The translations under genes and the position numbers were made by a program. A DNA stretch of 41,301 nucleotides. It comes from Bacteroidota bacterium. Lineage in GTDB: Bacteria; Bacteroidota; Bacteroidia; Palsa-948. Positions within the stretch are counted from its first letter, which is position 1. Every line of letters starts with the position of its first letter. This document shows, piece after piece, positions 1-41,301 of the stretch. Below the pieces are notes generated by a model. That model had not been told where the DNA came from. It saw only the letters and a program-made list of their open reading frames with translations, and searched no databases. The stretch is taken from assembly GCA_016213405.1 (NCBI GenBank), contig JACRAM010000084.1, forward strand, positions 1 through 41,301, in the 5' to 3' direction.

Positions 1-128
1 TCGTTATCACTTGCTTTTGCCTTCGGCTTCCTCCGCACAATGCCTCGCAACATTGCACTTGCTTTCAGCTAACACTTCGCGTTATCAACGTGTGTTCGGG
101 ACTTGCACCCTATAGTAAAAGAACATGG
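1..128. repeat. Structured intergenic repeat at left edge
   Basis: This stretch has no convincing gene but is full of short direct and inverted repeats. CGTTATCA occurs at 2-9 and again at 80-87, and CACTTGCTTT occurs at about 8-17 and 57-66. GCACAATG (35-42) can pair with CATTGC, and AACAC (71-75) with GTGTT nearby. The layout, with small palindromes in front of a small orphan gene, resembles a cassette boundary or a mobile intergenic repeat. I cannot match it to the attC consensus, so an integron origin is only a guess. The element runs off the left edge of the window. Confidence 0.35.
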
Positions 129-149
129 ATGGCGCACAAAGGAAACGAC

Positions 150-440
150 ATGGCGCTTCAGCAGTCGCTTGTTCGTTCAACGTATCGTTTTCTGCTCAAG
201 CGAAACCGATTATATAAATTTGAAGAATGTATTTTGAATTTCATCCGTAAAAAACTTTCAAAAATTCATTCACAGAAAGAACTTCTTCATTCATTCAGCG
301 AACTGAAAAAGGAAATAACGCAAATCATGAAGGACCCGTTTGAACGGGGAATCATTCAGGATTTTGATTTTGTTTCGTGGCTGGAAAGCAAGATTGAGAA
401 TCGTTCCTTCGCAGAAATAGTTCGCGAGAAAGCAAAATGA
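150..440 (+). CDS. Small hypothetical protein (96 aa)
   Basis: I do not recognise this gene. The frame opens at a GTG at 90, but the first 20 codons overlap the structured repeat and read like noise, so I prefer the ATG at 150; an ATG at 129 is also possible. The protein is basic at the N-terminus and probably alpha-helical. It ends in an acidic-aromatic stretch (FDFVSWLESKIENRSFAEIV), the part most likely to be conserved. There is no signal peptide or membrane segment. It is convergent with the ureohydrolase-like gene, 24 bp away. A cytoplasmic accessory gene is the most that can be said. Confidence 0.5.
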   Translation: MALQQSLVRSTYRFLLKRNRLYKFEECILNFIRKKLSKIHSQKELLHSFSELKKEITQIMKDPFERGIIQDFDFVSWLESKIENRSFAEIVREKAK

Positions 441-39106: not shown

Positions 39107-41173
39107 ATGAAAAAAAATATTATCACATATATCTTTTTTCTTATCTCAACTACTATTTGTTTTTCTCAAACCTTTAATGGAACCGGTGGACTGATTCCGG
39201 ATGACGGCACCAGCATTAACTTTACCATAAATGTTTCCGGACTTGCTTCTCCGCTGGATACGATAAACTTTGGATTGGAAGAAGTTTGTATCAATGCAAC
39301 ACACACATGGGATTCTGACCTTGAAATATCACTCATCGCTCCTGACGGAACTGTTTTTATTCTCACATCCGGCAACGGAGGAAGTGATGATGACTATACC
39401 AACACATGTTTTCGCAATGATGCTGTCACTCCAATCACGCAGGGAAATGCGCCTTTCACCGGAACATTTCGTCCGCAGGGAGATATGTCTTTCGTGAACA
39501 ATGGGCAAAACGGGAACGGGCAATGGAAACTTCATATTCTCGATACATATGCTTTTGCCGATCAGGGAAATCTACTTGACTGGAGCATTGCCTTCGGAAC
39601 CAATCCTGCTTCTCCTCTTTTCAGTTTCACAAGTTCCAATCTTCCGATAGTTGTTATCAATACAAACAATCAGCCTATTCCTGACGAACCCAAACTTACT
39701 TGCGACATGGGAATCATTTACAACGGAATCGGTGTCAGGAATTATATGACCGGTCCGTTCAATAATTACAACGGAAAAATTGCCATCGAAGCGCGAGGTT
39801 CATCATCACAGATGTTTCCTAAAAAAAGTTTTGGCTTTGAAACAAGATACGCTATCGGAAATAAAAAAGATACTATTCTTCTGGGAATGCCTGCTGAACA
39901 CGACTGGATTCTCAACGCATCCTATTCCGACAAAACTCATATGCGAAATGTTCTTTCCTATAAACTGTTCCGTGATTTTGGGAGATACGCTCATCGAACT
40001 CAATACTGTGAACTCGTTATTAACGGTCAATATCAGGGAGTGTACATTCTGATGGAAAGAATCAAGCGTGATAAAAATCGAGTGAACATTGCAAAACTAA
40101 ACACATGGGAAAACGCTGGAGATTCTTTGACTGGAGGATACATAATTAAGATTGATAAAACCACCGGCAATGGCGGAGCGGGCTGGACTTCTCCTTTTCC
40201 TCCGGTAGTCAGTTCAGGCGGGCAAACAATTTATTTCCAGTATGAATATCCTGATGCTGATTCAATCACTATTCAACAGCAAAATTATATTCAGCAGTAT
40301 GTTGATAGTTTTGAAACTTCACTTGCCGCACCCAATTTTACAGACACAAGTATTGGTTATGCAAAATACTGCGGAGTAAATACTTTCATTGATTATTTTA
40401 TTCTGAATGAAGTGAGTAAAAATATTGATGGATACCGATTGAGTACTTATTTATATAAAGACAAATACAGCAAGGGAGGAAAATTAAAAATTGGTCATCC
40501 CTGGGATTATGACATTGCCTGGTTGAATGCAGATTATTGTGGCAGCCCCTCTTACACCGATTGGGCGTATGAATTCGGCAATGTTTGCTCAGGTGATTTC
40601 TGGCAGGTTCCTTTCTGGTGGAATAGATTCATGCAGGATAGCAACTTCACCGACAATTTAAAATGCCGGTGGATCATGCTTAGAAATTCCGTGCTTGATA
40701 CCGGTTACCTTTTTTCCTACATAGATTCATCTGCTTCTTACCTTAATGAGGGGATGGGGAGAAACTTTATTACCTGGCCTATTCTGGGAGTTTATGTCTG
40801 GCCGAATCCAAGCCCGATTCCAATAACCTATCAGGGTGAAATTAACAGATTAAAACTATGGATTTCTAATCGGCTGACCTGGCTCGATACGAACATGCCC
40901 GGAAACTGTCTTACCACATCACTTCCATCCTATCCTTCTGAAAAATATTTTTCTGTTTATCCGAATCCATCAAAAGGAGTATGCCGCCTCTCCCCAACCC
41001 TCTCCAAAAAAGAGGGTGTTGTAGAAGTGTATTCAGTATTGGGAGAAAGAGTACTCTCCCTTCCCTTTGGGAAGGGCGGGGATGGGCTTCTTGATTTATC
41101 AAACCAGCCAAACGGAATTTACATTTTGAAAATTTTCTCTGGCGAAAAATTAATTCTCTACAAATTAAAGTAG
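39107..41173 (+). CDS. Secreted P-domain/CotH kinase-like protein with T9SS sorting domain
   Basis: A 688 aa T9SS cargo. Signal peptide at about 1-20 (ends ICFSQ). Residues about 22-165 form a proprotein-convertase P-domain (DLEISLIAPDGTVFILTSGNGG; GQWKLHILDTYAFADQGNLLDWSIAFG). The next 400 residues are CotH-like: KIAIEARGSSSQMFPKKSFGFET, DWILNASYSDKTHMRNVLSYKLF, NGQYQGVYILMERIKRDKNRVNIAKL and KIGHPWDYDIAWLNADYCG, the expected protein-kinase-like catalytic elements. A sorting domain starts near 615 (YFSVYPNPSKG). Inside it, residues about 626-640 and 649-662 are translations of a composite palindromic repeat. The stop codon lies at the edge of a group II intron-like sequence. Confidence 0.87.
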   Translation: MKKNIITYIFFLISTTICFSQTFNGTGGLIPDDGTSINFTINVSGLASPLDTINFGLEEVCINATHTWDSDLEISLIAPDGTVFILTSGNGGSDDDYTNTCFRNDAVTPITQGNAPFTGTFRPQGDMSFVNNGQNGNGQWKLHILDTYAFADQGNLLDWSIAFGTNPASPLFSFTSSNLPIVVINTNNQPIPDEPKLTCDMGIIYNGIGVRNYMTGPFNNYNGKIAIEARGSSSQMFPKKSFGFETRYAIGNKKDTILLGMPAEHDWILNASYSDKTHMRNVLSYKLFRDFGRYAHRTQYCELVINGQYQGVYILMERIKRDKNRVNIAKLNTWENAGDSLTGGYIIKIDKTTGNGGAGWTSPFPPVVSSGGQTIYFQYEYPDADSITIQQQNYIQQYVDSFETSLAAPNFTDTSIGYAKYCGVNTFIDYFILNEVSKNIDGYRLSTYLYKDKYSKGGKLKIGHPWDYDIAWLNADYCGSPSYTDWAYEFGNVCSGDFWQVPFWWNRFMQDSNFTDNLKCRWIMLRNSVLDTGYLFSYIDSSASYLNEGMGRNFITWPILGVYVWPNPSPIPITYQGEINRLKLWISNRLTWLDTNMPGNCLTTSLPSYPSEKYFSVYPNPSKGVCRLSPTLSKKEGVVEVYSVLGERVLSLPFGKGGDGLLDLSNQPNGIYILKIFSGEKLILYKLK
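40982..41093. repeat. GC-rich composite palindrome, full copy D inside a coding region
   Basis: GCCTCTCCCCAACCCTCTCC with AAAAAAGAGGGT, then CTCTCCCTTCCCTTTGGGAAGG and GCGGGGATGGGCTTC: the same two-hairpin layout as copies A-C, but read in frame as part of the T9SS sorting domain. Confidence 0.75.
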
Positions 41174-41301
41174 GAAGCGAAGGTACAAAGTAACTTCGCC
41201 ACCTCTCACACCACTGTACATGCTTAGACGCATACAGCGGTTTCATAAAGTTTTAATCGTTTGTAGTTTGCCGATAAACTGTAGTAACCTTCTTTTGCAA
41301 A
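41174..41301 (-). mobile_element. Probable 3' end of a group II intron (domains V-VI), cut by window edge
   Basis: Read on the minus strand this holds ACCGCTGTA (41233-41241) pairing with TACAGTGGT (41210-41218), interrupted by a 2-nt bulge and a short upper helix, like group II intron domain V. Next comes GTGGTGTGAGAGG, a phrase I know from the region after bacterial intron reverse transcriptase genes. A hairpin GCGAAG/CTTCGC (41177-41182 with 41194-41199) in the domain VI position follows, and then CTTCCTAC. The element would continue to the right beyond the window, where a reverse transcriptase gene is expected. The triad usually seen as AGC is not clear, so the call is tentative. Confidence 0.5.

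Follow-up and report, generated by a model that had tools for sequence, protein, structure and literature searches.

Group IIC introns are said, since Robart's work of 2007, to insert after intrinsic terminators, and in domain VI of group II introns an A bulges out 7-8 nt before the intron 3' end. Excerpted text of PMC4028801 gives the end consensus of group II introns as 5' GUGYG and 3' AY, and that of class C introns as 5' GUNYGCCNRGCAUGG and 3' CCUACYCGAU. Insertion of IIC introns at terminators is described in the same excerpts and in passages of PMC4424553 and PMC8919778, and a passage of PMC7161350 names the spacing of the branch A among the changes that switched a IIC intron over to branching in place of hydrolysis.

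The stretch of DNA analysed here, which we call the window, is 41,301 nucleotides long and is the whole of contig C84 in a Bacteroidota draft genome of 127 contigs and 3.65 Mb. Each end of the window lies in a copy of one intron: the right edge holds the 3' end of one copy and the left edge the 5' end of another (Table 1). We are highly confident that the element is mobile, a group II intron that falls in the IIC lineage or among the sister types nearest to it, and that it has spread in a recent burst to at least 19 copies, seeks out terminators and rewrote the end of a CotH gene. It is an ordinary IIC-type intron of a known kind, a new high-copy example slightly off the class C end consensus. 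Like the class C introns, it has a terminator-like hairpin and a T-run directly 5' of it, little sequence specificity, one constant 3' exon base and the domain I and domain V phrases. Its 3' end, CCTACTTTAAT, keeps CCUAC but not YCGAU, its 5' end, GTGCGCCATCCATGT, keeps GUNYGCC and only part of NRGCAUGG, and its branch A would lie 8 nt from the end, against 7 in class C.

Table 1. Positions of the features discussed, numbered from the first base of the window
Feature	Position	Strand	Evidence
Exon part of the gene for a CotH-kinase protein that has a T9SS sorting tail	39107..41163	+	PF08757, PF18962, TIGR04183, congener alignment
Present TAG stop of the CotH frame, intron sequence	41171..41173	+	sequence, 19-copy comparison
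Group II intron 3' end, 138 nt, contig breaks inside	41164..41301	-	19 identical copies; RF00029, 32.1 bits
Domain VI and 3' terminus, intron end ..CCTACTTTAAT	41164..41207	-	fold; end common to 19/19 copies
Domain V, stem with 2-nt bulge	41210..41241	-	fold, RF00029 alignment
Probable C-terminal 25 codons, with the stop, of the intron reverse transcriptase (RT), running into domain V	41224..41301	-	open frame FAKEGYYSLSANYKRLKLYETAVCV-stop
5' end of second intron copy, GTGCGCC.., domain I, contig starts inside	1..137	-	19 identical 5' ends; RF02001
Open frame extending out from the left copy	138..440	+	joins the L019 frame in phase for 100 codons

The intron ends and their copies

A domain V-like bulged helix, a conserved phrase and a domain VI-like hairpin had been pointed out on the minus strand in an earlier note on this DNA, and all three are present at that place. 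Folding, which the note had proposed as a check, recovers in 41164-41245 (minus) the shapes of both domains, with a 2-nt bulge in domain V and a single bulged A in domain VI (z -4.82; 0 of 200 shuffles as stable), and the unpaired A, 8 nt from the intron 3' end, is a candidate branch site. The covariance search that it had also named gives a full-length match of the Rfam model RF00029 (Intron_gpII) to 41164-41242 (minus) with an E of 1.2e-4 in 401 bases, although the 32.1 bits fall under the gathering score of 40. Because the introns of L104 and L105, both of which have RT frames, also miss E 0.01 with this model, a score below gathering does not amount to a rejection.

All 19 copies agree up to ATTAAAGTAGG (plus strand), followed by a single invariant base, A on the plus strand and T on that of the intron, and then by unrelated flanks, and therefore the intron ends at 41164. 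The earlier placing of the intron 3' end at CCTAC was right as to the region, but in all 19 copies the boundary, 41163/41164, is six bases past that motif, further into CotH. The constant T after the intron is, judging by the comparison of copies, the first base of the 3' exon and IBS3-like. The termini, GTGCG at the 5' end and AAT at the 3' end in 19 of 19 copies each, fit the group II consensus. At the left window edge the intron strand opens GTGCGCC..GGGTGCAAGTCC and matches RF02001 (group-II-D1D4-3) with 27.8 bits, the gathering score being 32 and the match being cut by the contig end.

The intron would be expected to carry a reverse transcriptase. An open frame, FAKEGYYSLSANYKRLKLYETAVCV, fills the first 75 nt of the 138-nt end and reaches its stop within domain V, and by eye the RT tails of L104, L125, L126 and L128, which lie just upstream of domain V, have a similar G(Y/F)..L...Y pattern; FAKEGYYSLSANYKRLKLYETAVCV is probably the C-terminus of the intron-encoded RT. 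A tblastn search of plasmids with this 25-aa tail, a very short query, found no relative. A profile search of the bin with PF00078, PF08388 and TIGR04416 found no RT, and the intron interior is likewise missing from it.

In the draft genome 19 copies of the 3' end can be counted, all 100% identical, and as many of the 5' end, which are 100% identical across the 102 nt used in the search; every one of these copies is at a contig end. Between 136 and 138 nt of the 3' end are present, varying by contig, and 127-138 nt of 5' sequence precede the point at which each contig breaks off. Four contigs (C66, C84, C93 and C105) have a 5' end and a 3' end together, and, counted from the matches to both ends, 34 of the 127 contigs terminate in the intron, which accounts for the break points of the window's contig and of 33 others. 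The copy number in the draft genome is at least 19; this is a lower bound, and the equal counts of 5' and 3' ends would fit 19 copies that may be full-length. What the intron adds to the known examples is the case of a T9SS-bearing genome in which terminator-seeking introns have recently multiplied to high copy. A second repeat in this genome (G000), of 138 identical bases and unlike the intron, lies in about the first 140 bases of contigs C98 and C103 (L049 and L048) and may mark an insertion-sequence end.

Target sites behind terminators

A terminator-like hairpin with a T-run ends the 5' exon at 18 of the 19 sites, where its final 50 nt have folding energies of -15.1 to -24.7 kcal/mol. Our threshold for a strong hairpin was -14 kcal/mol over the last 50 nt of the 5' exon, which is reached by 3.7% of 3000 TT^T control junctions, all drawn from the window only, with its own terminators among them. 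The energies include the T-run, so that pairing between A- and T-runs adds to them, and the controls were treated alike. The exception is the window's left copy, which has a weak hairpin at -10.3 kcal/mol, and 15% of the controls reach -10. All 19 sites have T at -2, -1 and +1, and position +2 and those beyond it are without constraint; the T at +1 fits IBS3, and the EBS loops fall in the unassembled interior. Sense ORFs of at least 60 aa, called mechanically, come to their stop 35-159 nt before the intron at 16 of the 19 sites, and at -231, -326 and -327 at the other three. A terminator hairpin and T-run at nearly all sites, with TT^T at every one, is the insertion pattern of IIC introns, and the domain I RNA agrees with that class.

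We suggest that the intron reverse splices by the IIC route into T-rich ..TT^T.. sites in DNA, immediately behind a terminator-like hairpin on its 3' side, and that it comes to lie oriented along the gene whose terminator precedes the insertion. The left copy probably interrupts one gene, in antisense, at the only site without a strong hairpin. When the 434-codon frame of L019 (contig C92) is joined to the frame that runs out of the left copy, the reading remains open for 100 codons, the longest of the 19 possible partners; judged by this continuity, the window frame is probably the C-terminal part of the gene whose first part ends contig C92. Neither frame reaches any Pfam family cut-off.

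The CotH gene and other gene ends

The CotH protein at the right insertion scores 217.3 bits with PF08757, 32.7 bits with PF18962 and 34.8 bits with TIGR04183. The intron-derived part of its frame (39107-41173) is 41164-41173, ..A TTA AAG TAG, which accounts for a single base of codon 686, all of codons 687 and 688, and the stop. The earlier note had taken the TAG as the CotH stop and the intron as antisense to CotH, not removable from the CotH mRNA, and it was correct in both. It had also suggested that an intron-free site be looked for in relatives, and one was found in the congener G002, whose CotH ortholog (63% identity) ends ..SKIIKAD-stop and in which a hairpin, AAAGGCGGATTAATTTCTTAACCCGCCTTT, contains the CotH stop codon. 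With the 5' exon from the end of contig C4 joined onto the CotH flank, the protein reads ..YKIIKAD-stop, and the joined sequence aligns with G002 across the junction without a gap or target duplication, both neighbour genes included, with the convergent neighbour (..FEMTALVSKHLKK-stop) on the other side of the junction in both genomes. We take this neighbour to be SWIB-like. The C4 flank has an 82% match to G002 along 1.1 kb, by far the best of the 19 flanks; those of L052, L054 and L066 have short, weak matches.

By this alignment, the CotH C-terminus is changed from IIKAD-stop to LK-stop, the native ..KIIKAD-stop now being ..KLK-stop, and the match to the TIGR04183 model of the T9SS tail now stops at position 68 of 72. 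The suggestion that the intron had replaced the original gene end is borne out by the comparison with G002, except that the loss is of the last five codons and the stop, not of one codon. In our proposed sequence of events, the hairpin at the right window end belongs to the small gene that converges on CotH and overlaps the CotH stop; insertion behind this convergent hairpin severed the last five codons of CotH, and the antisense of the intron 3' end handed it a new end, LK-stop. The truncation came about because the convergent gene's terminator hairpin overlaps the CotH stop codon, and the position at that codon because the site was chosen for the convergent gene's terminator. The CotH protein with its new end is presumably still made. 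This analysis corrects the end of the T9SS/CotH protein frame, which is partly intron sequence, and points to a mild and easily missed cost: although such introns are described as leaving coding sequence alone, they can alter a convergent gene's C-terminus where the end of that gene overlaps the terminator.

Gene ends are also involved at two other sites. In pfkA (NF002872, 399 bits; L013) the cut is at TA^A, and the TAA is remade by the intron's first antisense base; uvrC (TIGR00194, 367 bits; L017) has the same LK-stop as CotH. The partner of the pfkA site (L013, contig C108) is probably L054 (contig C90), the frame of which is, we assume, acyl-CoA-dehydrogenase-like; G001 has a frame of the L054 type downstream of pfkA, but with a different gene between. 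For uvrC a search for the partner flank found none. It is conceivable, if improbable, that the changed 3' end CTTTAAT does double duty, its antisense ATTAAAGTAG giving convergent genes a ready-made end. Were this so, ATTAAAGTAG would remake a TAA cut at TA^A and stop the other two-base phases within ten bases, and the intron could colonise terminators that overlap convergent gene ends, those of the housekeeping genes pfkA and uvrC included.

Alternative readings and relatives

The insertions in the terminal codons or stop of CotH, pfkA (TA^A, L013) and uvrC (L017) might suggest that the stop codons of convergent genes are themselves targeted, or that insertions exactly there are selected. We consider this highly improbable and reject it as the main cause, because most of the 19 3' flanks are without an evident gene end at the junction and the bases from +2 onward are unconstrained; moreover, terminators overlapping convergent gene ends account for the cases seen. 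It is barely credible that the repeat is some other transposable element or an artefact of assembly, as might be supposed from copies that are all at contig ends and never assembled whole: the ends GTGCG..AAT and domains I, V and VI are recognisable, the flanks differ at every copy, with 19 different junctions on each side, and the empty site aligns without target duplication.

A closer call concerns class, as a sister lineage of IIC (bacterial-g6, U1, U2) that also inserts after terminators could be the source of the intron rather than class C proper. The deviation from the terminal consensus at both intron ends speaks for such a lineage, and in the part of PMC8919778 that deals with them the sister types also sit right behind terminators and have proteins near class C on the tree. 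However, the window intron shares its domain I model with L104 and L105, and among solved chains the L105 RT is closest to the GsI-IIC RT, so that we regard a sister lineage as unlikely, although it deserves to be kept in view. 

For the terminator-seeking IIC-type intron that we prefer, the complete, RT-bearing intron L105 (G373:C99, same class) offers a comparison. It resembles the window intron in its 5' end (84% over 44 nt), in the RF02001 domain I and in having GTGGTGTGAGAGG before domain VI; unlike the window intron, it is complete with its RT, ends CCTACTCGAT and has a 5' hairpin that is only weak, by eye. RF02001 scores 148.9 bits with the L105 intron and 153.6 bits with that of L104, and the L105 RT scores 391 bits with TIGR04416, its best solved relative being the GsI-IIC RT at 404 bits versus 129 for LtrA. 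The L104 intron (L104:1903-3760, G077), of IIC type, has its RT split over two overlapping frames and is broken or frameshifted. In G002 a stub (L102:4590-4637) is 95% identical to the window intron over the first 40 nt and likewise stands right behind a terminator-like hairpin; it differs in consisting of the first ~50 nt only, without an intron body. This solitary 5' stub (L102:4590-4640) precedes another gene and seems to have lost its 3' part. A contig of another congener (L103:1390-1533, G004) ends inside a IIC-type intron (RF02001, 45.6 bits) of different sequence, and the genus therefore has at least two intron lineages of this kind.

Of the 7 genomes of the genus that were searched, the 6 other than the intron's own have no match to the intron 3' end. 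Across wider sets, the 5' end matches 9 of 395 genomes of the class and the 3' end 3 of 395 genomes of the phylum, the intron's own genome included in each count. Searches of viral contigs gave 0 matches to the domain V pattern and 0 to the 5' pattern, and a search of phages gave no match to the intron. On plasmids the 5' end matches 2 records and the 3' end 67, in the domain V part only; two of these 67 (H6 and H7) were inspected, and both adjoin an annotated ltrA. Among genome contigs the domain V pattern picks out three, by the domain V core only, of which two are labelled Bacteroidota and one Micrarchaeota. In the last of these (L070), copies of domain V at 722-770 and 2576-2624 are 1.8 kb apart, and directly after the first intron end comes sequence resembling the beginning of the next intron; these are possibly tandem group II introns, and the archaeal label may reflect misbinning.
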